This document shows positions 12,886-64,000 of a DNA stretch of 64,000 bases, piece after piece. A model generated the notes under the pieces. The model saw only the letters and a program-made list of their open reading frames with translations, did not search any database and was not told the DNA's origin. The stretch covers positions 68,289,241 through 68,353,240 of the forward strand of contig NC_092091.1 in assembly GCF_045679555.1 (NCBI RefSeq), given 5' to 3'. Both the position numbers and the translations under genes were made by a program. Source of the stretch: Salvelinus alpinus. Lineage: Eukaryota > Chordata > Actinopteri > Salmoniformes > Salmonidae. Every line of letters starts with the position of its first letter. The first letter of the stretch is position 1.

Positions 12886-13802
12886 TGTCACGTGTGCTCC
12901 CTCTCCGGCCTCTAGGTCACCAGGCTGCTCGTTATGTCGCACACCTGCCACCGTCGTTACGCGCACCTGCGCATCGTCAGACTCATCTGGACTCCATCAC
13001 TTCCCTATATATGTCACTCCCTTTGGTTCCTTCCCCAGGCGTCATTGTTTATTTTTCTTGTTTTGTATTATGTGCCGTTTATTTTACTAAAACACTCACT
13101 CCCTGAACTTGCTTCCCGACTCTCAGCGCACATTGTTACAGAATGACGCCTCACCTAAGGGAAGCGGGAATGACTTTGTGTCCGGGAGCTGCTACAGGCT
13201 TGCATGCCTCAGACAGATCGCCAGGCTCCCCGGCCTTCGCGGGTTCGTCAGGCTCTCAAGCCTCAGCTGGATCGCCAGTCTCCCCTGCTACAGCCGGCCC
13301 GTCGGTCTTTCATGTCTTCACCGGATCGCCAGGCTCCCCTGCTTCCACCGGCTCGTCAGGCTCTCATGCCTCAGCTGAATCGCCAGGCTCCCCTGCTTCC
13401 ACCGGCTCGTCAGGCTCTCATGCCTCAGCTGGATCGCCAGGTTCCCGCGCCTCAGCAGAGGTGATCGGTCCGCTCCTGATCCCGAGATCGTCCCTTTGGT
13501 CGGCGTCTTGCGGCTGGAAGGGGGTACTGCCATGTGTGCTTCCTCTCCGGCCTCTAGGTCACCAGGCTGCTCGTTATAGTGCACACCTGTCACCATCGTT
13601 ATGCGTACCTGCGTGTCGTCAGACTCATCTGGACTCCATCACTTCCCTGAATGTCACTCTCTTTGGTTCCTTCTCCAGGCGTCAATGTTTCTGTTTCATG
13701 TCTGTGTGCTGTTAATGTTTCTTGTTTTGTATTATGTTCCCTTTATTTTCTTAACACTCACTCCCTGAACTTGCTTCCCGACTCTCAGCGCACATTGTTA
13801 CA
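12886..13802 (+). mobile_element. Short LTR retrotransposon (TRIM-like)
   Basis: Two direct repeats bound the element: LTR1 at 12886-13140 and LTR2 at 13528-13802. Both begin TG and end CA, and they share long blocks such as CTCTCCGGCCTCTAGGTCAC and CTGAACTTGCTTCCCGACTC. The 5-bp sequence CCTTT occurs just before LTR1 (12881-12885) and just after LTR2 (13803-13807), a clean target-site duplication. The interior is only 387 bp. It contains a purine-rich tract (GGCTGGAAGGGGG) right before LTR2 and an imperfect 54-bp tandem repeat (about 13323-13432) with a Gly/Ser/Pro/Ala-rich frame. No gag, protease, reverse transcriptase or integrase is visible, so it would need proteins from elsewhere. Confidence 0.85.
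13323..13432 (+). repeat. 54-bp tandem repeat inside the LTR element
   Basis: Two nearly identical units carry CGCCAGGCTCCCCTGCTTCC and CGTCAGGCTCTCATGCCTCA. More degenerate copies precede them from about 13215. Confidence 0.8.
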
Positions 13803-27800: not shown

Positions 27801-30800
27801 TCTGAAGCTAATTAGCCAATAGCGCTCTAGCCATGAACTTATCGCCATATGTGTGGTAGTAAATCTAGGCCGAGCAGAGGGGATGGCCAAGTAATCTCAG
27901 TGGCTGGGCTGTCTAGATTTAATCAAACTTTATTTATATAGCACATTTCTTAGAGGATGCGTTTTAAAGTGCTTAACAAATAAAATAAAAGGTGAGAAAG
28001 ATAAAAACAAAGTTTTCTATTTAAATGACTAAGACAATAAAAAATGTAAGAGACAACTTAAAATAGTAAAATAACAGTACACATGAGGCTAATGCATTAA
28101 AATAAATGTGATTATATATGGGAATATGATTAAAAAGAACCCTAAGTAAAAGCATGTCTAGAGGCTGTTCTAAAGGCCAGGACCATAGTGGTTGAAGGCA
28201 GCCTCACCAAACGTTGTGGTTCAGAGTGACCTTTGGAACAGCTGAAAGGCCAGTGATAGAGGATCTGAGGGACAACCTGGCACATATGCTTTTAAGATAT
28301 CAGACATGTATTCAGGTGCAAACCCACGTAGTGCTTTAAAAATCAATAAAGCCATTTTAAAATCCGCTCTAAAACAAACAGGCAACCAATGCAGTGACTG
28401 TGCTCTCCTCCTGGCCTTTGGAAGCACACGTGCTGCGGCATTCTGAATGAATTAAAGCTGGCCAATGTTTTTTTTTGAGGGGGGAGACCAGACAGGAGTG
28501 CATTGCAATAATCAAGCCTGTCAGTAATAAAGACATGCATTAGTCAGTGTGGACTTGACAGAGGAATGGTCACACTTTGACAATATTTCTAAGGTAATTA
28601 AAAAGCTGATTTGTTCACATTTCTGATGTGGGCCTTCACTGGCCCAATGCTCTAGCCTAGTGGTTAGAGCGTTGGGCCAGTAAACGAAAGGTTGCTAGAT
28701 TGAATCCCCGAGCTGACAGGGTAAAAATCTGTTGTTCTGCCCCTGAACAAGGCAGTTAACCCACTGTTGCTAGGCCGTCATTGTAAATAAGAATTTGTTC
28801 TTAACTGACTTGCCTGGTTAAAAAAAAATATATATATTTTTTAGGTCAGTCTAAAATAACACCTAGGTTTATAGCCTGGTGGGTTGTGTCTAGTAGTCTT
28901 GATTAGCCGTCTGAACAGCTGGTTACTGCTGTCTGTACTGTCTTTCCCCTTGTCTCTGTTACTGGTCCTGAATCATGTACTTCCATACTACTTAGTATCC
29001 AGAAGAGTAGGTTAGGATTCCAAGTATGATAAACATGTTTAATTTGCATACAATTGTAAGAATGATGAAGAGCGTATCAGACGACATGCTGTAATGTCTC
29101 AAAGAAAATGAGGAATGGGTGAATCTCCATGCCTCCACATTCTCCTGGGAGCCCATTGTAATCTCCTCCTCCGTCTCTTCTCCCCTCCCTCGTTCCATAG
29201 GGTGCTCCCGTAAGGAGATCACAGAGCACTGGGAGTGGCTGGAGCAGAACCTCCTGCAGACACTGTCCATCTTTGAGAACGAGAATGACATCACTACCTT
29301 TGTCAAGGGCAAAGTTCAGGTACTGTTTAGTGTATATATGAGTCACTTAGCACATGCTGGTCTCTAAAGAAACAGTATGGACTTCTCTGGGATTTGGAAG
29401 GTTGGTTGTGTTTAGAGGGGTTGCATGGTGGGGTTTGGAATTTCACAATTCTTTGTGATGGTGTTTGTGACAATAGTAATGGTGGTTGTCAGCAATTCAT
29501 TTTGACAGTTTGGACATTGAAACGTATGACATTTACCTGTGAAATGTTTGTCATGCCAGGTGTAATATTAGCCTAGCATGTAGTCAAACTAGTATTGTCA
29601 AAATAACTCCTGCCAGGGGCAAAATAACAAAGCCCGGCTGTATTTACTATTGTAACCTAAAAACAGGTCCAGCTACTGACACAGCCTCTAAATCAGGTTC
29701 TGTATTTATCTGTATGGAGATAAAGTCGTTCTTACTCAATGAATAGATTACAAAAGCTAGCCAGATAAGATTTATTTTGTTCTCTCACTTTGTCTGCCAC
29801 TCACTCTCTCACTTTCTTGCTATCTCTATTTTAAAATGAATTGTTGAACTTTTTTATTGATTTTCTCTCTCAAAGTCCTTCACTCCCTCTATTTCTCTCT
29901 TGCCCCAGGGTATTATCGCCGAGTACAACAAGAACCACGACGTGAAGGAGGACGATGACACTGACAAATTCAAGGAGGCCATCTGTACGTTCCGTAAGCT
30001 GTTTGGCATGCCTGAAGAGGAGAAGCTGGTCAACTACTACTCCTGTAGCTACTGGAAGGGCCGTGTGCCCCGGCAGGGCTGGCTCTACCTCAGCATCAAC
30101 CACATCTGCTTCTACTCTTACCTGCTGGGGAAAGAAGGTAGGGACCACTGGCATGCTGGCACAGGTACACACACCACTGCATCACTGGTGGGTACTACAT
30201 ACCGATTATGCATAGCTTTTGAAGACCCTTCAGAAGTCCCAAAAATAGTACAACCCCTTGATATTTTTCTGGGTGGATACAATGTATTTTTTAAGATGAA
30301 GTGATGTATATTTGAAACGATCAGCTTTTATGCAACCAAAAAAATGAATAAAGGCAACCATCTATCTTTCCCTCTCTGTCTCTCTCGCCCTCTTTCTTCC
30401 CCCCTCAGCCAAGCTGGTGATCCGCTGGGCCGACATCACCCAGCTGGAGAAAAGCGCCACCCTCCTCCTCCCCGATGCAGTCAAGGTGAGCCTTGTAAAT
30501 GATATCAACTATACTGCATGTTACCATCGCTTTAACGTCTCTTTTGTCCATCCACACACCCCTCTAACCTTCATTCATGCTTCCATTCCTCGGGCCAAGG
30601 TGAGCACTCGGGTGACTGAGCACGTCTTCTCGGTCTTCCTCAACATCAACGAGACCTTCAAGCTGATGGAGCAGCTGGCCAACATCGCCATGAGACAGCT
30701 CCTTGACAACAAGGGCTTTGAGCAGGACCGCTCTCTGCCCAAACTCAAGAGGAAGACACCCAAAAAGGTGTCTGCCCTCAAGAGGTGAGGTTTGATGGAG

Positions 30801-33800
30801 GGGGTTCTGGGGAGGTTCTGGGAAGGTTTGGTGAGGCTGGATGTTGTAGTTGAGAGATTTTTGTTGATCTCCCCTCAATAGGTTCGGTTGATAGTTGAGG
30901 AGGATTGGTTTCTGGGGAGATGCAGTAAGTTTAGTCATGATGTAGTCATTTATAATGCTGCACAACATTCTTTGCTGCGGGTGACCTATAACCATTCACA
31001 ACCATTCCATGTGGTTGCATGGCGTTGTAAGTTTTACACAGTTTAATAAACAATATACCAAGACTTAACTCAATGACTACATAAGACCACCAACAAACAA
31101 CTAAAATGACTTCAGAGGAAAGAAATGTATAGTCTTGTTCCAACATGCCTGAAGGAAAAGCAGCTGAGGAGGTGTTAGTAGTATATTAAAACGGGCTTCC
31201 TTTCTAGTAGTTTGGCTCACAGCCACTTTTGCATTCTTTAAATCTACAGCACGACTTTGTCATAATCCTTTTAGGTACAGCTCAACTTTTACTGGCGCTA
31301 TTAACTTTGAACACCCAAGCTTGCGTCATTGGCCCAAGACTTTCAAATGTATTACCCTCAAGACAGATTCCAACTTTCTAACCACTACCCATACTGTTGC
31401 CCCATCTAGATGTCTATTGTAGTAGTAACTGTTGCCCCATCTAGATGTCTATTGTAGTAGTAACTGTTGCCCCATCTAGATGTATATTGTAGTAGTAACT
31501 GTTGCCCTATATAGATGTCTATTGTAGTAGTAACTGTTGCCCCATCTAGATGTCTATTGTAGTAGTAACCGTTGCCCCATCTAGATGTCTATTGTAGTAG
31601 TAACCGTTGCCCCATCTAGATGTCTATTGTAGTAGTAACTGTTGCCCCATCTAGATGTCTATTGTAGTAGTAACTGTTGCCCCATCTAGATGTCTATTGT
31701 AGTAGTAACTGTTGCCCCATCTAGATGTCTATTGTAGTAGTAACTGTTGCCCCATCTAGATGTCTATTGTAGTAGTAACTGTTGCCCCATCTAGATGTCT
31801 ATTGTAGTAGTAACTGTTGCCCCATCTAGATGTCTATTGTAGTAGTAACTGTTGCCCCATCTAGATGTCTATTGTAGTAGTAACTGTTGCCCCATCTAGA
31901 TGTCTATTGTAGTAGTAACTGTTGCCCCATCTAGATGTCTATTGTAGTAGTAACTGTTGCCCCATCTAGATGTCTATTGTAGTAGTAACTGTTGCCCTAT
32001 ATAGATGTCTATTGTAGTAGCAGCTGTTGCCCCATCTAGATGTCTATTGTAGTAGTAACTGTTGACCTATATAGATGTCTATTGTAGTAGTAACTGTTGC
32101 CCCATCTAGATGTCTATTGTAGTAGTAACTGTTGACCTATATAGATGTCTATTGTAGTAGTAACTGTTGACCTATATAGATGTCTATTGTAGTAGTAACT
32201 GTTGCCCCATCTAGATGTCTATTGTAGTAGTAACTGTTGCCCCATCTAGATGTCTATTGTAGTAGTAACTGTTGACCTATATAGATGTCTATTGTAGTAG
32301 TAACTGTTGCCCCATCTAGATGTCTATTGTAGTAGTAACTGTTGCCCTATATAGATGTCTATTGTAGTAGTAACTGTTGACCTATATAGATGTCTATTGT
32401 AGTAGTAACTGTTGCCCTATATAGATGTCTATTGTAGTAGTAACTGTTGCCCTATATAGATGTCTATTGTAGTAGCAGCTGTTGCCCTATATAGATGTCT
32501 ATTGTAGTAGTAACTGTTGCCCTATATAGATGTCTATTGTAGTAGTAACTGTTGCCCTATATAGATGTCTATTGTAGTAGCAGCTGTTGCCCTATATAGA
32601 TGTCTATTGTAGTAGTAACTGTTGCCCTATATAGATGTCTATTGTAGTAGTAACTGTTGCCCTATATAGATGTCTATTGTAGTAGTAACTGTTGCCCCAT
32701 CTAGATGTCTATTGTAGTAGTAACTGTTGCCCCATCTAGATGTCTATTGTAGTAGCAACTGTTGCCCCATCTAGATGTCTATTCTAGTAGCAACTGTTGC
32801 CCCATCTAGATGTATATTGTAGTAGTAACTGTTGCCCCATCTAGATGTCTATTGTAGTAGTAACTGTTGCCCCAGCTAGATGTCTATTGTAGTAGTAACT
32901 GTTGCCCCATCTAGATGTCTATTGTAGTAGTAACTGTTGCCCCATCTAGATGTCTATTGTAGTAGTAACTGTTGCCCCATCTAGATGTCTATTGTAGTAG
33001 TAACTGTTGCCCCATCTAGATGTCTATTGTAGTAGTAACTGTTGCCCCATCTAGATGTCTATTGTAGTAGTAACTGTTGCCCCATCTAGATGTCTATTGT
33101 AGTAGTAACTGTTGCCCCATCTAGATGTCTATTGTAGTAGTAACTGTTGCCCCATCTAGATGTCTATTGTAGTAGTAACTGTTGCCCCATCTAGATGTCT
33201 ATTGTAGTAGTAACTGTTGCCCCATCTAGATGTCTATTGTAGTAGTAACTGTTGCCCCATCTAGATGTCTATTGTAGTAGTAACTGTTGCCCCATCTAGA
33301 TGTCTATTGTAGTAGTAACTGTTGCCCCATCTAGATGTCTATTGTAGTAGTAACTGTTGCCCCATCTAGATGTCTATTGTAGTAGTAACTGTTGCCCCAT
33401 CTAGATGTCTATTGTAGTAGTAACTGTTGCCCCATCTAGATGTCTATTGTAGTAGTAACTGTTGCCCCATCTAGATGTCTATTGTAGTAGTAACTGTTGC
33501 CCCATCTAGATGTCTATTGTAGTAGTAACTGTTGCCCCATCTAGATGTCTATTGTAGTAGTAACTGTTGCCCTATATAGATGTCTATTGTAGTAGTAACT
33601 GTTGCCCCATCTAGATGTCTATTGTAGTAGTAACTGTTGCCCCGTCTAGATGTCTATTGTAGTAGTAACTGTTGACCCATCTAGATGTCTATTGTAGCAG
33701 TAACTGTTGCCCCATCTAGATGTCTATTGTAGTAGTAACTGTTGCCCCATCTAGATGTCTATTGTAGTAGTAACTGTTGCCCCATCTAGATGTCTATTGT

Positions 33801-36800
33801 AGTAGTAACTGTTGCCCCATCTAGATGTCTATTGTAGTAGTAACTGTTGCCCCATCTAGATGTCTATTGTAGTAGTAACTGTTGCCCCATCTAGATGTCT
33901 ATTGTAGTAGTAACTGTTGCCCCATCTAGATGTCTATTGTAGTAGTAACTGTTGCCCCATCTAGATGTCTATTGTAGTAGTAACTGTTGCCCCGTCTAGA
34001 TGTCTATTGTAGTAGGAACTGTTGCCCCGTCTAGATGTCTATTGTAGTAGTAACTGTTGCCCCGTCTAGATGTCTATTGTAGTAGTAACTGTTGCCCCAT
34101 CTAGATGTCTATTGTAGTAGTAACTGTTGCCCCATCTAGATGTCTATTGTAGTAGTAACTGTTGCCCCATCTAGATGTCTATTGTAGTAGTAACTGTTGC
34201 CCCATCTAGATGTCTATTGTAGTAGTAACTGTTGCCCCATCTAGATGTCTATTGTAGTAGTAACTGTTGCCCCATCTAGATGTCTATTGTAGTAGTAACT
34301 GTTGCCCCATCTAGATGTCTATTGTAGTAGTAACTGTTGCCCCATCTAGATGTCTATTGTAGTAGTAACTGTTGCCCCATCTAGATGTCTATTGTAGTAG
34401 TAACTGTTGCCCCATCTAGATGTCTATTGTAGTAGTAACTGTTGCCCCATCTAGATGTCTATTGTAGTAGTAACTGTTGCCCCATCTAGATGTCTATTGT
34501 AGTAGCAACTGTTGCCCCATCTAGATGTCTATTGTAGTAGTAACTGTTGCCCCATCTAGATGTATATTGTAGTAGTAACTGTTGCCCCATCTAGATGTCT
34601 ATTGTAGTAGTAACTGTTGCCCCATCTAGATGTCTATTGTAGTAGTAACCGTTGCCCCATCTAGATGTCTATTGTAGTAGTAACCGTTGCCCCATCTAGA
34701 TGTCTATTATAGTAGTAACTGTTGCCCCATCTAGATGTCTATTGTAGTAGTAACCGTTGCCCCATCTAGATGTCTATTGTAGTAGCAACTGTTGCCCTAT
34801 ATAGATGTCTATTTAGTAGCAGCTGTTGCCCTATATAGATGTCTATTGTAGTAGTAACTGTTGCCCTATATAGATGTCTATTGTAGTAGCAGCTGTTGCC
34901 CTATATAGATGTCTATTGTAGTAGTAACTGTTGCCCTATATAGATGTCTATTGTAGTAGCAGCTGTTGCCCTATATAGATGTCTATTGTAGTAGTAGCTG
35001 TTACCCCATCTAGATGTCTATTGTAGTAGTAACTGTTGCCCTATATAGATGTCTATTGTAGTAGCAGCTGTTGCCCTATATAGATGTCTATTGTAGTAGT
35101 AGCTGTTACCCCATCTAGATGTCTATTGTAGTAGTAACTGTTGCCCTATATAGATGTCTATTGTAGTAGTAACTGTTGCCCTATATAGATGTCTATTGTA
35201 GTAGCAAATGTTGCCCTATATAGATGTCTATTGTAGTAGCAACTGTTGCCCTATATAGATGTCTATTTAGTAGCAGCTGTTGCCCTATATAGATGTCTAT
35301 TGTAGTAGCAACTGTTGCCCTATATAGATGTCTATTGTAGTAGCAGCTGTTGCCCTATATAGATGTCTATTGTAGTAGCAGCTGTTGCCCTATATAGATG
35401 TCTATTGTAGTAGTAACTGTTGCCCTATATAGATGTCTATTGTAGTAGCAGCTGTTGCCCTATATAGATGTCTATTGTAGTAGCAACTGTTGCCCCATCT
35501 AGATGTATATTGTAGTAGCAACTGTTGCCCCATCTAGATGTATATTGTAGTAGCAACTGTTGCCCCATCTAGATGTCTATTGTAGTAGCAACTGTTGCCC
35601 CATCTAGATGTATATTGTAGTAGCAACTGTTGCCCCATCTAGATGTCTATTGTAGTAGTAACTGTTGCCCCATCTAGATGTCTATTGTAGTAGCAACTGT
35701 TGCCCCATCTAGATGTATATTGTAGTAGCAACTGTTGCCCCATCTAGATGTCTATTGTAGTAGTAACTGTTGCCCCATCTAGATGTCTATTGTAGTAGCA
35801 ACTGTTGCCCCGTCTAGATGTCTATTGTAGTAGTAACTGTTGCCCCATCTAGATGTCTATTGTAGTAGTAACTGTTGCCCCATCCAGATGTCTATTGTAG
35901 TAGTAACTGTTGCCCCATCTAGATGTCTATTGTAGTAGTAACTGTTGCCCCATCTAGATGTCTATTGTAGTAGTAACTGTTGCCCCATCTAGATGTCTAT
36001 TGTAGTAGTAACTGTTGCCCCATCTAGATGTCTATTGTAGTAGTAACTGTTGCCCCATCTAGATGTCTATTGTAGTAGTAACTGTTGCCCCATCTAGATG
36101 TCTATTGTAGTAGTAACTGTTGCCCCATCTAGATGTCTATTGTAGTAGTAACTGTTGCCCCATCTAGATGTCTATTGTAGTAGTAACTGTTGCCCCATCT
36201 AGATGTCTATTGTAGTAGTAACTGTTGCCCCATCTAGATGTCTATTGTAGTAGTAACTGTTGCCCCATCTAGATGTCTATTGTAGTAGTAACTGTTGCCC
36301 CATCTAGATGTCTATTGTAGTAGTAACTGTTGCCCCATCTAGATGTCTATTGTAGTAGTAACTGTTGCCCCATCTAGATGTCTATTGTAGTAGTAACTGT
36401 TGCCCCATCTAGATGTCTATTGTAGTAGGAACTGTTGCCCCATCTAGATGTCTATTGTAGTAGTAACTGTTGCCCTATATAGATGTCTATTGTAGTAGTA
36501 ACTGTTGCCCCATCTAGATGTCTATTGTAGTAGTAACTGTTGCCCCATCTAGATGTCTATTGTAGTAGTAACTGTTGCCCCGTCTAGATGTCTATTGTAG
36601 TAGTAACTGTTGCCCCATCTAGATGTCTATTGTAGTAGTAACTGTTGCCCCATCTAGATGTCTATTGTAGTAGTAACTGTTGCCCCATCTAGATGTCTAT
36701 TGTAGTAGTAACTGTTGCCCCATCTAGATGTCTATTGTAGTAGTAACTGTTGCCCCATCTAGATGTCTATTGTAGTAGTAACTGTTGCCCCATCTAGATG

Positions 36801-39800
36801 TCTATTGTAGTAGTAACTGTTGCCCCATCTAGATGTCTATTGTAGTAGTAACTGTTGCCCCATCTAGATGTCTATTGTAGTAGTAACTGTTGCCCCATCT
36901 AGATGTCTATTGTAGTAGCAACTGTTGCCCCATCTAGATGTCTATTGTAGTAGTAACTGTTGCCCCATCCAGATGTCTATTGTAGTAGTAACTGTTGCCC
37001 CATCCAGATGTCTATTTAGTAGCAGCTGTTGCCCCATCTAGATGTCTATTGTAGTAGTAACTGTTGCCCCATCTAGATGTCTATTTAGTAGCAGCTGTTG
37101 CCCCATCTAGATGTCTATTGTAGTAGTAACTGTTGCCCCATCCAGATGTCTATTGTAGTAGTAACTGTTGCCCCATCTAGATGTCTATTGTAGTAGTAAC
37201 TGTTGCCCCATCTAGATGTCTATTGTAGTAGTAACTGTTGCCCCATCTAGATGTCTATTGTAGTAGTAACTGTTGCCCCATCTAGATGTCTATTGTAGTA
37301 GTAACTGTTGCCCCATCTAGATGTCTATTGTAGTAGTAACTGTTGCCCCATCTAGATGTCTATTGTAGTAGTAACTGTTGCCCCATCTAGATGTCTATTG
37401 TAGTAGTAACTGTTGCCCCATCTAGATGTCTATTGTAGTAGTAACTGTTGCCCTATATAGATGTCTATTGTAGTAGTAACTGTTGCCCCATCTAGATGTC
37501 TATTGTAGTAGTAACTGTTGCCCCATCTAGATGTCTATTGTAGTAGTAACTGTTGCCCCATCTAGATGTCTATTGTAGTAGTAACTGTTGCCCCATCTAG
37601 ATGTCTATTGTAGTAGTAACTGTTGCCCCATCTAGATGTCTATTGTAGTAGTAACTGTTGCCCCATCTAGATGTATATTGTAGTAGTAACTGTTGCCCTA
37701 TATAGATGTCTATTGTAGTAGTAACCGTTGCCCCATCTAGATGTCTATTGTAGTAGTAACTGTTGCCCCATCTAGATGTCTATTGTAGTAGTAACTGTTG
37801 CCCCATCTAGATGTCTATTGTAGTAGTAACTGTTGCCCCATCTAGATGTCTATTGTAGTAGTAACTGTTGCCCCATCTAGATGTCTATTGTAGTAGTAAC
37901 TGTTGCCCCATCCAGATGTCTATTGTAGTAGTAACTGTTGCCCCATCTAGATGTCTATTGTAGTATTATACTGTCATACTTGTTTGCAAATTGCTCTTTC
38001 ACTCCATTGACCTGATTTTATTTTATTTTTCATACAAAGGAAAGAAAACATTTGAAATAGTTTTTGGGATGCATTTTAGGATACATGGGAAATATAAAAC
38101 ATTGGCCAAATGTATTTTAATGTGTGACATACATTTACAAATGTATTTGGAATACATAAATGTGTATGGAAATACACTGGGTACAAAACATTAAGAATGC
38201 CTGCTCTTTCCAAGATATAGACTGAAGTGGAGGAGAAAGGTTAAAGAAGGATTTTCAAGCCTTGAGACAGTTGAGTCATGGATTGTGTATGTGTGCTATT
38301 CACAGGGTGAATGGGCAAGACAATAGATTTAAGTGCCTTTTGAACAGGTTATGGTAGTAGGTGCCAGACGCACCGGTTTGTGTCAAGAACTGCACCGACA
38401 GTTAGTCTCAATTTACTGCTGCTATTTAAAGACAACAGATTATGTTCCGAATTAGATTCTTGACAGTCACTAGACTAGACAATCTCTTGAACCTTGCTGT
38501 CTCACCCAGGGACCTGGATGCCAGGGCTAAGAGCGAGCGTTACCGGGCCTTGTTCCGTCTGCCCAAGGATGAGAAGCTGGACGGACACACGGGCTGCACC
38601 CTTTGGACCCCCTTCAACAAGATGCACATCCTGGGCCAGATGTTTGTCTCCACTAACTACATCTGCTTCACTTCCAAGGAGGAGACCCTGTGCAGCCTCA
38701 TCATCCCCCTAAGAGAGGTGAGTCTGGCTGGGTACAGACTCTGGTGATTGACCGTAGTCCTGGAGCTTAGTGTTGACCCGGAGCAGTAGTCTGCATTGAC
38801 TGGAGCTCTCTGGGATTTCGGGTTGGTGACCGTTGAGCTAGACTTTTGTGACAATGTTGGATGATGCTAAGACATAAGTCAATGTGGGAGCACTATAGAT
38901 TTGAGATTTTCCATCAGGAAAGAAAGGTTACCTTTGACAAGTTGTGCTGCTGTAGGGGGTGTACTAGCAGGGCAGTTAGAAAGAGCAGCAGCCGGCTTAA
39001 CACTCTGGTAGGGGCTGTCACTCCCAATCTGCTTTAGTCACTGGCTGCCCCTCGCCCAGCCATTGCCTTGTCGATCAGGATTCCCCCCCCCCTGTCAAAT
39101 CCTATCCCCATCAGCCATCTTAAACTACCAATCGCTGGCAGGGCAGAATGTGGATCGACGTCTAGTGTTACGATGTGTGGCACTGAATCAATTCAGTCAC
39201 CTAGTATGTGGTTTGAACTGTTGATATGGTGAGACCTATTGTGTGCTTGGTATGGTATGTTGGCCTTTGGTCATTGCACATGAGAATATTGGCCTAAGTG
39301 GTTAGATGGGGAAATAAATCAATACACATGCGATGGGTTACTGTAATTCGTGTTCTACATCGAACACTTTCTCATATGAAATAGGAGATTTATATCTTGT
39401 GTTGCATCCCCATATCTTATGACTGACATGTGACTGGCATGTCTGTTGTGACTGGCATGTCTGTTGTCTGACACAACCCTGCACCTTGATTAATCAACCC
39501 TGCACCTTAGAGGCTGCTGCCCAATATACATGGAATCACTGGTCACTTGAATAATGTTTACTTACTGCATTACTCATCTCATATAATATATTTTATACTG
39601 TATTCAATTTACTAGTATTTTAGTCAATGCCACTCTGACATTGCTCGTCCTAATATCTTAACTCCATTCTTTTACTTTAGATTTGTGTGTATTGTTGTGA
39701 ATTGTTAGATACTACTGCAGTGTTGGAGCTAGGAACACAAGCATTGCACTACACCTGCAATAACATCTGCTAAATATGTGTATGTGACCAATAACATTTT

Positions 39801-42800
39801 ATTTGTTATGACTGGCATATCTGTTGTCTGACATATGACTGACATCTATTGTGACTGACATACCTGTTGTGACTGATACATAAATGACATATCTGTTGTG
39901 ACAGACCTCTGTGTCTCTGTCCCTCCCAGGTGACGATAGTGGAGAAGGCGGACAGCTCCAACTTTTTGCCCAGCTCAGTGTCCATCAGCACCAAGAACAG
40001 GATGACTTTCCTGTTCGCCAACCTCAAGGACCGGGACTTCCTGGTCCAGAGGATCTCTGACTTCCTGCAGCAGACCACCTCCAAGATCTACTTCGAGAGG
40101 GAGATCACCGGGAGTGTGAACAGCTCCGACGATGAGGTGAGGGCACATCTATGTCATTGTATATCTAGGATGTTGTACATAATTTAGGTCTATACTCTTC
40201 CACAACTGCTCCCCAAGTTTGCTGATAAGTCTCCCTCTACTTCAGGTCTTCAGTAAATACTTTAGCATGATTATTATCACAGGTCTCTGATCAGCTCTTA
40301 TCATAAAGCACACTGCATTAACTATCCTTACCCTGATCCTGGACTTGTTCTGCTCTCCACCAGGTGTATTCTCAGTAATATTAGTATGGCATCTCATCAC
40401 AGGTCTCGGAACAGTTGTTATGATAAATTCATGATAATTGACTGCGTTAACAATCTCCTAATTCTGATCCTGAATCTGTCTCTCTCTCCTCTAGTTGTAC
40501 TCCCAGCAGGGCTCTCTCCTCTCCAGCAGTCCCCAGCGCAGCAGTCTGGGCTCAGAGGGCTCCTCCGAGGGTGAGCGCCAGTTTAACCTCAATGACAACA
40601 GCGTGCCCACCGCCACCCAGGCCCTCATGACAATGTACCGCCGCCGCTCGCCGGAGGAGTTCAACCCCAAACTGGTACGGTCATTGAATGGTCACGGAAT
40701 ATGCAGTTCTGTTCACATGTTGGGGGCTCCTGAGTGGCGCAGCGGTCTAAGGCACTGCATCTCAGTGCTAGAGGTGTCACTACAGGCCCTGGTTCGATTC
40801 CAGGCTGTATCACAACCGGCTGTGATTGGGAGTCCCATAGGGCGGTGCACAATTGGCCCAGCGTCGTCCGGGTTAGGGTTTGGTCGGGTTAGGAATGTCA
40901 TTGTAAATACGAATTTGTTCTTAAATGACTTGCCTAGTTAAATAAACATGTGGTCGAACACAAGAAGATGCTCTATTGCTATAGTAGAGAATTGGAAAGA
41001 TTGCACATGATTGATGGAACTGAACTGGGACTAAATGAATTGAGTTAAACTCTTATTTACAGTGACAAAATATTGTAACAAACTGTAATTGCGTGTATAT
41101 ACCTACATGCTGAATAAGACATTGGGAATCCAATTTTCTGCATGTAATAACCTGAGGCTTTTCTCAAGCCTCAAATCAAATTGTTTTGCTTGCGTACACC
41201 TATTTAGCAGATGTGATTGCGGGTATAGCGAAGTGCTTGTGATCCGAGCTCCAACAGTGCGGTAATATCTAACAATACAAAACAAAGTTGCTTAGGAGCC
41301 AGAAACAGAGCGGCCATGTCTATCGGCGCCATCAGTGTCTCAACCTTGATCTAAAACAATGCTTGGGTTGCAGTCAGTGTGTTCTGTTCCTGCTCTAACC
41401 TCCAGCTGGCTTTGCATTGCACAGTTCAAAGGCCTGCAGGGAAGTTGCTGATGTAGACCAATGGAGGGGGAGTGTGTGGAAAGTATATTAGATCCGAGTT
41501 AATTGAAGTAAATAAAGCCTTAATGAAGTTCCTCAGACCTCTTGGGGAGTATTTGTGCTACATACGTCTGTGTCCAAAGTTAGAAATATTGTTTAGGCTT
41601 TGAAGGTTCTCTGGCTCGTTATTTAATGAGGTGGGATTTTTTTTTTGACTCCTACGAACCATCCTGATCTCTCGAGCTTACATTCTGCGTGTATTGAAAC
41701 AATGTAAGCGTGCCAGATTAGGATGGTTCGTACGAGGCTAGTCATTTTTTTTGTGCTTTTTTTTTTGCTTTCTGCAGAGAAGTCGGGTTGTTGGCTCAGC
41801 TGTTACAAGGGTGTCTACTTTCTTTCTCTCGCTCTCTCTGTCCTTGAACATTCTGTAGTTCTCTCTAAGGGGAGCTTTACTGGCATGAAATGTGTCTCTT
41901 ATGACATTTCTCTTTTTTTCTTTTTCTAACACATGCAAGATTATTAACTGTCAATTTCAATATTTCCCCAGGCCAAGGAGTTCCTGAAGGAACAGGCGTG
42001 GAAGAACCACTTCACCGAGTACGGCCAGGGGGTGTGTATGTACCGTACAGAGAAGACCAAGGACCTGGTGCTTAAAGGCATCCCAGAGAACATGAGGGGA
42101 GAGCTGTGGCTGCTCTTCTCTGGTGAGGCCAACAGTCGCACGCGTTCTCACAAACAGTCAGACGTGGGCATGATCTCACAATACACTCTCACATTCACTG
42201 TACATAGTCATTTGTATATGACATTATGCCCCCCGGTTCTTGACATTCATATACTCGACTTTCACTCATTCTGTATCTCCACAAGCCGTGCTGATACACA
42301 CGCTCAAAGACCACAGATAGACAGTACTACGTGCTCATACACCAACTCCTAACCTGCATTCAGCATCGTGTGGTGGGACCACACATCTCATTACTATAGT
42401 TATTGTTACCACAGGAGGAAAAACAACAGTAAAAACACATCAGGTTTGGGGTTTTCCCAAACCCCCCTTTGTGGTATGAGCACAGAATGGTTCATCATCC
42501 AGGTGTATTAGAAGTATTGACAGTCAAATATTAGCTATTCTTTCAGTGTACATATGGATTTGGGTAGCCTCATTAAACATGCATTAGCTTGGCCTTGGCA
42601 ACGCATTCCATTCCCATCTCCTGCCTGAGCAGCAGTATCTAACCCGTAACTGGGCTGCGTCCTTCACGTCCACTGCTACAGCATATTACAGTGAGAGCAC
42701 ACATTCTATAGTCTGCTTATTGTACGCCAAACTGAACACTGTCAGTCTGGTTTAACCAGGCTTTACAAACACAGCAGCTTATGTAGGGGTTGTGTTAGAG

Positions 42801-54734: not shown

Positions 54735-55640
54735 CCCTGTCTTTCAAAGATAATTCGTAAAAATCCAAATAACACAGTTTCCCATGCTTGTTCAATGAAC
54801 CATAAACAATTAATGAACATGCACCTGTGGAACGGTCGTTAAGACACTAACAGCTTACAGACGGTAGGCAATTAAGGTCACAGTTATGAAAACGTAGGAC
54901 ACTAAAGAGGCCTTTCTACTGACTCTGAAAAACACCAAAATAAAGATGCCCAGGGTCCCTGCTCATCTGCGTGAACGTGCCTTAGGCATGCTGCAAGGAG
55001 GCATGAGGACTGCAGATGTGGCCAGGGCAATAAATTGCAATGTCCGTACTGTGAGACGTCTAAGACAGCACTACAGGACGGACAGCTGATCGTCCTCGCA
55101 GTGGCGGAGCACGTGTAACAACACCTGCACAAGATCGGTACATTCGAACATCACACCTGCGGGACAGGTACAGGATGGCAACAACAACAACTGCCCGAGT
55201 TCTGCCATGGCCAGCGAAGAGCCCGGATCTCAATCCCATTGAGCACGTCTGGGACCTGTTGGATCGGAGGGTGAGGGCTAGGGCCATTCCGCGCAGAAAT
55301 GTCCGGGAACTTACAGGTGCCTTGGTGGAAGAGTGGGGTAACATCTCACAGCAAGAACTGGCAAATCTGGTGCAGTCCATGAGGAGGAGATGCACTGCAG
55401 TACTTAATGCAGCTGGTGGCCACACCAGATACTGACTGTTACTTTTGATTTTGACCCCCTTTTTGTTCAGGGACACATTATTCCATTTATGTTAGTTACA
55501 TGTCTGTGGAACTTGTTCAGTTTATGTCTCAGTTGTTGAATCTTGTTGTGTTCATACAAATATTTACACATGTTAAGTTTGCTGAAAATAAATGCAGTTG
55601 ACAGTGAGAGGACGTTTCTTTTTTTGCTGAGTTTATGACA
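54735..55640 (+). mobile_element. Internally deleted Tc1/mariner transposon
   Basis: The start of a transposase (54949 onward, VPAHLRERALGMLQGGMRTA helix-turn-helix) is followed after about 240 nt by the C-terminal end (WPAKSPDLNPIEHVWDLLDR, with the DDE-region NPIEHVW motif) at about 55200-55434. The central catalytic part is missing, joined near CTGCCCGAGTTCTGCC. The right end shows GACAGTGAGAGGACGTTTCT and TTTTGCTGAGTTT. The left inverted repeat is mostly lost, so the copy is inactive. Confidence 0.85.
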
Positions 55641-61648: not shown

Positions 61649-64000
61649 CTGAAGCAGGGAGGCCAAGACAGAGTTAGGGGTTTAGGTAACCTGAAGCAGG
61701 GAGTTATCCCCTATGCTACCGACAAACAGAGTTGAGCGCGATTAGCATACACTTACAGAACAGCTGATGGAGGTGCTGCAGTTGGGGTCTCCCAGACACA
61801 GTGTTGTAGAAGTGGGGTTTGAGAGCACCACTCTTCAGTAAACTGTACGCCATCTCCGTCAGGTTGATACCCACTATGGCATAGGAGTACCTGAAACATG
61901 ACACACATATGATAATCATTAAAAAGCTATAAATGTTGTCAAAGTAGGTTTACTTTGGGTGTGCTTGTTTTATCTTGTTTGGTGCCCAGGTGGGCAGAGG
62001 TTTCACTTCAGGACTAATGGAAAAGTCTCAAATGTGTAAACTCCACCCACCCAGTAATTGGGCAAGCTAAAAAAACACAACTATTGATAGATGAGTNNNN
62101 NNNNNNNNNNNNNNNNNNNNNNNNNNNNNNNNNNNNNNNNNNNNNNNNNNNNNNNNNNNNNNNNNNNNNNNNNNNNNNNNNNNNNNNNNNNNNNNNGATG
62201 AGTGAATATACTGAAAAGTGCAACAGAACCATAGCTGACATATAAAGAACAGAGTTCAACAGGCCAGTCAACTCCTAAAAGTAGGTAATTACGTGATCCT
62301 TACCCATGTTTGGGATGGTTTGCGTGGGACAGCACTTGCCGAGCCTCTTCAGTGTAGTTCTCACTAAAGAACCTGTAATAAACAAGATAACGAATTTAAA
62401 AAGTTACGAAATCTAGCTTAAACTTGAGAAGAAAAAAAATACAACTTTTCAGAATACTGATGAGCAAGGTTAGATTGTTAAGGACTGGACAGTCATTCAG
62501 ACAGCATAACTCACACAAGGTTGGTTAGGCCCAACATGCCCATTCCTCGGAAGTCAGTCTTGGGGTCATCGCCTTGGAAACCAATGTCGCCCCACTGTTT
62601 GGTAACTCTGGACTCCAGTTTGACCTCGGGCATCAACAGGTCCCATAACTGTAGAGTCAGACAAGTCCATTCCTGTTAATACTTTACACTTACCTTTAAA
62701 TAGAGATATTAAAGAGTTTGAAACAGTCATGTTGAACCATCTCACCCAGAAACACTCCATTGCTCCATGCTAGTCATTGACATAAAAAAATGAACGGCCG
62801 CAGTACCTTCAAAAGCATTTCCTCGTGTTGGACTTTATCCGAGTCAAAAGTCTCCTTCCTCAACTCTTCCACGGACGTGAATAAGTTCCTGTATCCCGTT
62901 ATTTGTAAGAGACACAGCTTCAGATTCACCTTAAACCTAGGACCAAAGAGACACACACATTAGTAATCAATACATATCATATAAAATAATATATATAAAA
63001 TAGTAAAGGGTAACAAGACTGACGTGGGATCCCTCTGCGTTTTGACATTCTTTTCCCTCATGATAAGATCCAGATACTTCTCCAAACCATCCTCCTCCAC
63101 ATTCACAGCAGCTCTTAATAGCTGGAGAGAGGGAAGGAGAGAGGAAGAGAGGAGAGAGGGAAGGAGAGAGGAAGAGAGGAGAGAGGGAAGGAGAGAGGAA
63201 AGGAGAGAGGAAGAGAGGAGAGAGGGAAGGAGAGAGGAAGAGAGAGGGACAGAGGAGAGAGATGGTATGATTAGTTATCTCATCCATGGTAATAGCTTAG
63301 AGTTTGTGTTAGTACTTCTCCTACAGACTATGCTGTCATAACACGCACGATGAGCACTGAGGTCAGAGGATGGAACAACCAATTATGTATTACCTACTGC
63401 CTTGACTATGTATGGGGGAAATGCCATAGTAACAGAGTGATGCTGAGACTCAGAATTGTCCCCTTTAAAATGGATGCCAAACAAAAACGAATATTTGCAA
63501 AGTAAAGCAAAACCATACAACTATGCACAACGACGACTTCCAACAGTGCAGATGCAAAGGTTTGGTAAGTGAATGACGACACCAACAGCACAAACCGTCA
63601 TTTTATTAACAAACTTTGCATCTGCAATGTTCAACTAAATGTGTTTTTGTAAAATATTCAGTGGAAATTGTTAAAAGTAGTCATGTGCTTAGAGTTGTGT
63701 GGTTTGTTTAACTTTGCAATCATTGGTATTTGTTTGCCATTCATTTTAAAAGTGAAAAATCAGAGTCTCTGCATGTCTCTGTTACCATGGAAATGCCCAT
63801 GAACTGTTGATAAGAATGTGCTTAGCATAACAAGAATAACAACCGTCGCGGTACTGATCAATGGATTTCTTAAGTGGGTTAAATGTAACAGTTGATTGTG
63901 GTTGTCTGTATGATAACTAGTCAACGATGCATTCCTGCTTCAGTAAAAATCAAGTGAAAGGAATGATTTCCAACATTTACCTTAGATTTGGAGTTATTGA
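61488..64000 (-). CDS. elmod2: ELMOD2, ELMO-domain GAP (3' part, seven exons placed)
   Basis: ELMOD2 stimulates GTP hydrolysis by Arl2 and Arf-type GTPases without being a classical Arf GAP. On the minus strand the exons are 64000-63981 (cut by the window edge), 63121-63024, 62936-62807, 62648-62515, 62372-62304, 61890-61757 and 61648-61488, all GT-AG and in frame. The ELMO domain GAP motif is present in 62648-62515: KQWGDIGFQGDDPKTDFRGM, with the catalytic Arg in DFRG. Other matches are LCLLQITGYRNLF, YSYAIVGINLTEMAYSLLKS and PESIMEFNHYREKFH. The C-terminus VALTMTDSPRSN is longer than the human VALTLKV. Calling ELMOD2 rather than ELMOD1 rests on NLTEMAYSLLKS and the position next to UCP1. 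The first exons lie right of the window. Confidence 0.93.
61757..61890 (-). CDS. elmod2: ELMOD2 exon (ELMO domain)
   Basis: It encodes YSYAIVGINLTEMAYSLLKS then GALKPHFYNTVSGRPQLQHL and HQLF. Donor T|GTAAGT, phase 1. Confidence 0.93.
62097..62196. other. Assembly gap (100 N)
   Basis: Exactly 100 N, a standard placeholder for a gap of unknown size. It lies in an ELMOD2 intron, flanked on both sides by GATGAGT. Confidence 0.99.
62304..62372 (-). CDS. elmod2: ELMOD2 exon
   Basis: It encodes FFSENYTEEARQVLSHANHP then KHG. Donor GG|GTAAGG, phase 2. Confidence 0.92.
62515..62648 (-). CDS. elmod2: ELMOD2 exon (GAP motif)
   Basis: It encodes LWDLLMPEVKLESRVTKQWG then DIGFQGDDPKTDFRGMGMLG and LTNLV, the ELMO GAP core with the DFRG arginine. 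Donor GT|GTGAGT, phase 2. Confidence 0.93.
62807..62936 (-). CDS. elmod2: ELMOD2 exon
   Basis: It encodes FKVNLKLCLLQITGYRNLFT then SVEELRKETFDSDKVQHEEM and LLK. Phase 0 donor AAG|GTACTG. Confidence 0.93.
63024..63121 (-). CDS. elmod2: ELMOD2 exon
   Basis: It encodes LLRAAVNVEEDGLEKYLDLI then MREKNVKTQRDPT, aligning with DKYVDDIMKEKNINP of human. The acceptor CTCTCCAG follows a 135-nt purine/pyrimidine repeat tract. Confidence 0.88.
63125..63262 (+). repeat. GA-rich tandem repeat abutting an ELMOD2 acceptor
   Basis: Repeats of GAGAGGGAAGGAGAGAGGAA form a purine tract of about 135 nt. On the minus strand it is the pyrimidine tract of the next exon's acceptor. Confidence 0.9.
63263..63980 (-). 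other. ELMOD2 intron, nothing recognised
   Basis: No exon or named repeat is supported. Confidence 0.5.
63981..64000 (-). CDS. elmod2: ELMOD2 exon, cut by window edge
   Basis: The minus strand gives NNSKSK followed by AAG|GTAAAT, aligning with SLTYSKNK just before the VLQKA block of human ELMOD2. The phase fits the next exon. Only 20 nt are visible. Confidence 0.6.

Follow-up and report, generated by a model that had tools for sequence, protein, structure and literature searches.

The closest described systems are human. CACNA1C TRACT is described as an intronic VNTR with a 30-bp unit, a common allele of ~6 kb and units distinguished by point variants (PMC13131567), and, judged by analogy, the array reported here, in intron 6 of the tbc1d9 gene of Salvelinus alpinus, is like it in form. 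Long perfect tracts occur in both, comprising 26 units in the shortest long-class alleles described for CACNA1C TRACT and 19 units in tbc1d9 (PMC13131567). The two differ in gene, unit and species and, whereas length variation and an association with expression were measured for the human array (PMC13131567), the present account is one of sequence only. TERT VNTR6-1, with a 38-bp unit, shares the location in an intron 6 and a similar unit length; it is described as having 24–66.5 copies and as forming G-quadruplexes, whereas the sense strand of the tbc1d9 array is free of runs of three or more G (PMC11830802). What is described for these human intronic arrays indicates that a functional role is possible (PMC13131567, PMC11830802). 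MSY1, a 25-bp minisatellite of the human Y chromosome, also has an A+T-rich, self-pairing unit and variants that lie partly in blocks; it is, however, haploid and 75% A+T, and units of variant length are described as never observed in it, whereas the tbc1d9 array is 60% A+T and 4 of its 188 units are 34 bp long (PMC2599865).

A further precedent concerns genome assembly. A gap that separates near-copies on a single scaffold is described as a hallmark of false duplication (PMC9516828), and the locus presented here resembles the false heterotype duplications of that report in having near-copies split by a gap on one scaffold. There, the duplications were tested by read depth and k-mers; here, the judgement is made from the assembled sequence.

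In our view, the tbc1d9 array is most probably an intronic VNTR that is neutral and changes fast. To the fuller reading, that it would be a neutral VNTR of a single locus and that an apparent second array upstream would be its other allele, misplaced, we give a probability of about 0.8. The window referred to below is the whole stretch of DNA analysed, 64,000 nucleotides long, which corresponds to C6:68289241-68353240 of the 2.37-Gb assembly. No publication on the tbc1d9 intron 6 array was recognized among the open-licence papers searched.

The array and its host intron

Minisatellites are head-to-tail arrays with units of roughly 10–100 bp, on a kilobase scale; the tbc1d9 array, with 188 units of 35 bp in 6.6 kb (6582 bp), is a clear example. 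Within the 64-kb window, TRF returned it with period 35, 188.1 copies, 97% matches, 0% indels and a score of 12000, against 304 for the next-best tandem array, in line with the first-pass annotation, which had given about 188 copies and had called it far longer than any other tandem repeat here. That annotation had also placed the array at 31392..37965: the place was right and the right end too short, as 37968 is the final base of the last unit and the TRF call reaches 37974. The features concerned are as follows:

30600-30784, plus strand: exon 6 of tbc1d9, identical in the upstream copy and without a Pfam hit of its own
30785-38509, plus strand: intron 6 of tbc1d9 (GTGAGG...CCCAG), phase 2, 7725 bp, from sequence and splice scores
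31393-37974, plus strand: 35-bp minisatellite array, 188 units, consensus ACTGTTGCCCCATCTAGATGTCTATTGTAGTAGTA, from TRF and a unit parse
38510-38717, plus strand: exon 7 of tbc1d9, second GRAM domain (Pfam E=8.5e-12)

The unit parse resolved 26 unit types, with a mean pairwise identity between units of 95.6%, and 108 of the 188 units match the consensus exactly. Unit length is 35 bp in 183 cases and 34 bp in four, the remaining, final unit running into the flank; the 34-bp units are all of a single form, which is the sole internal length variant. There are no Ns inside the array.

The exons of the host gene carry, according to Pfam, two GRAM domains and a RabGAP-TBC domain, and the exon numbering includes matches to exons 1–3 near 18.75, 26.1 and 29.2 kb of the window. 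The reading frame stays open across intron 6, ...VSALKR being joined to the exon 7 protein. In human, the gene order is RNF150–TBC1D9–UCP1; the neighbours of the present gene, a PA-domain gene upstream on the minus strand and a mitochondrial carrier gene downstream (both from Pfam), fit this order and, together with the protein sequence, are the reason why we take the gene to be tbc1d9. Both the assignment of the repeat to an intron of TBC1D9 and the claim that it fills 85% of that intron were thus borne out, the measured share being 85.2%. Further family members on C4 and C7 have 75–81% protein identity in exons 4, 6 and 7, and an intron of ~0.3 kb, without an array, at the position of intron 6; exon 7 has 79–80% matches to two paralogues. 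On these sequences, we regard the C4 and C7 genes as probably the two duplicates of a different family member, and not as the direct duplicate of tbc1d9; the genome search did not reveal a direct duplicate dating from the salmonid genome duplication.

The unit is confined to this locus. A pattern search of the 2.37 Gb with a 29-bp core of the unit, allowing up to three mismatches, gave 287 matches, all on one strand (none in reverse and none for a reversed control), and the 173 in the window array plus the 114 in a second array on C6 account for all of them. At up to three mismatches over 29 bp, it is therefore a single-locus minisatellite, and a dispersed satellite, the outcome that the first-pass annotation had wished to see checked, is excluded; the two C6 arrays are the only ones at this stringency, in keeping with the one or few loci of a minisatellite. 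Collections of prokaryotes and viruses contained, as expected, no exact match to a 33-bp unit pattern. Separately, a 13-bp array (AGACATCTACAAT; 56 copies, 85% matches) at C1:29449441-29450171 has a weak, diverged match (67–76%) to the reverse complement of part of the 35-bp unit, a likeness that may reflect convergence or distant kinship; exons 4–7, each searched alone and in the right frame, were not found in the 20 kb surrounding it. Other elements of the window are three tRNA-like SINE heads (GTGGCGCAGYGGT), at 40734 (+), 53951 (−) and 2107 (−), of a family that we take to be common in salmonids, and a DDE_3 transposase fragment at 55064-55432 (+; Pfam E=4e-07).

The second array and the upstream near-copy

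The second array occupies C6:68278609-68283010, starting 42 kb upstream of the window array, and runs for 125.6 copies before it stops mid-unit at a gap of 100 N (C6:68283011-68283110). The flank before it is 100% identical to that of the window array over 1513 bp, and the duplication extends much further: ~39 kb and an array are present twice around the gap, as C6:68239663-68283010 and in the contig from 68283111, the stretch concerned being window positions 1-31392 plus the 6.1 kb before the window. The part inside the window is:

1-31392, no strand assigned: stretch with a near-copy just upstream of the window (C6:68245787-68278608), ~93–100% identical by piece

The right contig aligns to the left contig from its first base, at 99.87% over 6189 bp, and onward to the array, with no duplication junction seen in the alignment. 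Comparison in 26 pieces of 1.5 kb, 25 of which aligned (the 26th being a remainder of 22 bp), gave a mosaic, with identities of 99.6–100% in 12 of the 25 and of 94.3–98.9% in the other 13, three of the latter alignments being partial, short by more than a third. The near-copies also differ by one indel of 1.2 kb and by smaller ones. The upstream copy reproduces exons 4–6 exactly, as well as those pieces of exons 2 and 3 that were tested, but not the piece tested around exon 1, and the genome search with exon 7 returned one 100% match, plus two paralogues. At 13195-13453, where there is a 54-bp repeat of 4.8 copies, the alignment of the two regional copies falls into overlapping pieces, which suggests a difference in length between them. 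The sole N run of the window, a 100-N assembly gap at 62097-62196, showed no duplication between its two sides in the stretches that were compared.

The near-copy upstream, which takes in the 5′ half of tbc1d9 as far as exon 6, probably arose by false haplotype duplication, and the second array is most likely the other allele of the window array, misplaced in the scaffold. The assembly seems to have broken at the array, apparently counting part of tbc1d9 twice: one haplotype's contig would break inside the array, and the other haplotype's contig would be placed beside the broken one in the scaffold, giving rise to an apparent second array. The 100 N between the near-copies on C6 correspond to the described hallmark of such errors. 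Moreover, the second array contains nine units of irregular length, all within units 80–115 of 125, as expected of a poor contig end.

That the duplication is instead real, a recent partial tandem duplication of exons 1–6 and the array that left two true arrays on the chromosome, is unlikely, albeit with some probability left to it by the middle of the stretch, which diverges by 1–6%, a high value for two alleles; furthermore, the two copies stand in order on C6, and mosaic identity over ~39 kb could also be attained by gene conversion between tandem copies. Nevertheless, such an event is opposed by the lack of a junction, with the right contig matching the left from its first base, by a break that consists of a 100-N gap inside the array, by the return of a single 100% match for exon 7, and by the status of a gap between near-copies as a hallmark of false duplication (PMC9516828). 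Least probable of all the alternatives weighed here is an inflation of the array by the assembly from a few copies: the assembly did break within an array of this unit, and the second array has its error-like units, but the window array is free of Ns, comprises 26 unit types and has one 34-bp form (4/188) as its only internal length variant, and more than 100 units stand in sequence on either side of the gap.

Unit turnover within and between the arrays

Within the window array, homogenization is local. Identical neighbours make up 87 of the 187 adjacent pairs, against 63.6 ± 3.8 and a maximum of 76 in 2000 shuffles of the units, and the mean difference between units, 0.98 for immediate neighbours (lag 1), climbs to 1.79 at lag 20; the homogenization proposed in the first-pass annotation was supported in this local form. 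Perfect tracts of at least five units contain 83 of the 188 units, and variant units are gathered in blocks, the limits of which were set by eye on the unit map:

31391-31397, plus strand: ATACTGT at the left edge of the array, recurring at the right edge (37968-37974)
31988-32687, plus strand: first of two blocks with many variant units of the CCCTATATAG type (units 18–37), from the unit map
32898-33562, plus strand: 19 consensus units in an unbroken row (units 44–62), the longest perfect tract

A second block of the CCCTATATAG variant lies at ~34788-35485. The pattern is that of local slippage or exchange, and the greatest divergence between units is not located at the array ends. Past lag 20, the mean difference goes up and down, with values of 1.12 at lag 80 and 1.66 at lag 100, and we count this unsteadiness against an account by local homogenization. 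Large-block duplication inside the array was not demonstrated, as the best self-alignment, with a score of 21.0, was equalled in 28 of 100 neighbour-preserving shuffles, compared with none of 100 within-block shuffles.

The maps of the two arrays, at 188 units and at least 125 (the second ending at the gap), are related yet unlike. A nine-unit word, EPHAQAAAA, is common to both, at unit 39 of the window array and unit 33 of the second; it has four non-consensus letters, including a unit type that occurs once in each array, and a shared word with four such letters was reached in 1 of 200 map shuffles. Alignment of the whole maps scores 16.4, better than all 30 shuffles (maximum −17.6). However, 38 units precede the word in the window array and 32 in the second, the consensus units following EPHAQ number 19 and 4, respectively, and only 15 unit types are common to the two sets of 26 (window) and 31 (second). 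In the 7.5 kb preceding the array, 7 substitutions and 4 gap bases separate the two copies. Provided that both arrays are correctly assembled, the repeat has changed far faster than its flank, although part of the difference between the maps may be assembly error. The earlier suggestion of a highly variable locus would hold to the extent that the arrays, with the same unit, a near-identical 5′ flank and unlike maps, are alleles, as we infer.

As to origin, 35–36 bp of tbc1d9 intron 6 would have been duplicated in tandem, perhaps between ATACTGT repeats; the pair at the array edges is a possible founding direct repeat, although it implies a founding unit of 36 bp rather than 35 bp, which counts against the proposal. 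Growth and local homogenization may then have proceeded through strand slippage, unequal exchange or conversion between neighbouring units. A transposon origin was rejected: neither flank has an inverted pair of at least 12 bp inside it, and a comparison of the two 300-bp flanks with each other yielded inverted and direct matches of 10 bp at most.

Splicing, RNA structure and the probable role of the array

The first-pass annotation had raised an effect on splicing or transcription, and this was not supported. In scores based on position weights, with four real donors of tbc1d9 and three real acceptors other than that of exon 4 as references, the best donor of the consensus unit reaches 1.8 bits, compared with 9.1–11.6 bits, and its best acceptor 3.8 bits, compared with 4.8–12.8 bits. 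Among 3000 random 35-mers of the gene, 58% had no better donor and 32% had an acceptor at least as good; the sites of the unit being this ordinary, we rejected the idea of splicing decoys. Acceptor-like sites of at least 3 bits reach a density of 50 per kb in the array, three to four times that of the remaining gene sequence (13–16 per kb), whereas those of at least 5 bits are rarer (0.9 versus 5.5–8.8 per kb), and donors of at least 3 bits are absent from it (10–12 per kb outside). Single variant units peak at 2.2 bits for donors and, in one site at the left edge, 5.8 bits for acceptors.

RNA folding was assessed by comparing six-copy arrays of the unit with six-copy arrays of shuffled units (n=500); z-scores from controls that destroy the repetition overstate stability. 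With dinucleotide shuffles, controls as stable or more so numbered 36/500 for the consensus and 18/500 and 8/500 for two variants in the sense direction, and 52/500 for the consensus and 2/500 for one variant in antisense; with mononucleotide shuffles, the sense counts were 107, 27 and 6, and the antisense counts 134 and 9, of 500. Folding of the consensus is thus unremarkable, and the excess for the variant is a weak signal, since that variant was picked among several; an RNA-structure role was rejected. No Rfam match was found within the window. Canonical G-quadruplexes need closely spaced G-runs: the sense strand of the array has no run of three or more G, and its C-runs of at least three bases, 183 over 6582 bp or approximately one per unit, are too far apart to provide a canonical quadruplex on the other strand, so that a VNTR of the TERT VNTR6-1 type was also rejected. 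Overall, a role in splicing, in regulation or at the RNA level finds no good support here, and little in the sequence points to one.

It is accordingly very unlikely, on the analogy with TERT VNTR6-1 and CACNA1C TRACT, that the array would be a functional VNTR tuning the splicing or expression of tbc1d9 by copy number or unit type. A long array inside a transcribed gene, human intronic 30- and 38-bp arrays described as associated with effects on expression or splicing (PMC13131567, PMC11830802), a variant that folds better than most dinucleotide-shuffled arrays and a raised density of weak acceptor-like sites could all be read in its favour. Against it, the consensus folds unremarkably on both strands, the stronger acceptors are scarce and donors of at least 3 bits missing, the best splice sites are ordinary for random 35-mers of the gene, and neither sense G-runs nor an Rfam match are present. 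Marginally less probable still is a hypermutable version, in which allele length or hairpin-prone blocks of variants would alter the processing of tbc1d9 pre-mRNA and the fish would carry two strongly different alleles. With splice-like sites that are ordinary, consensus folding that is unremarkable and no Rfam family, we prefer a neutral single-locus minisatellite, which would be transcribed with tbc1d9 and most likely removed with the intron, to no effect and with no selected function.

The array can be read unit by unit in two assembled versions, and it thus offers a ready marker and a case for the study of minisatellite turnover in fish. It also illustrates how a minisatellite can break an assembly and leave behind an apparent partial second copy of a gene; such apparent copies would mislead counts of gene duplicates.
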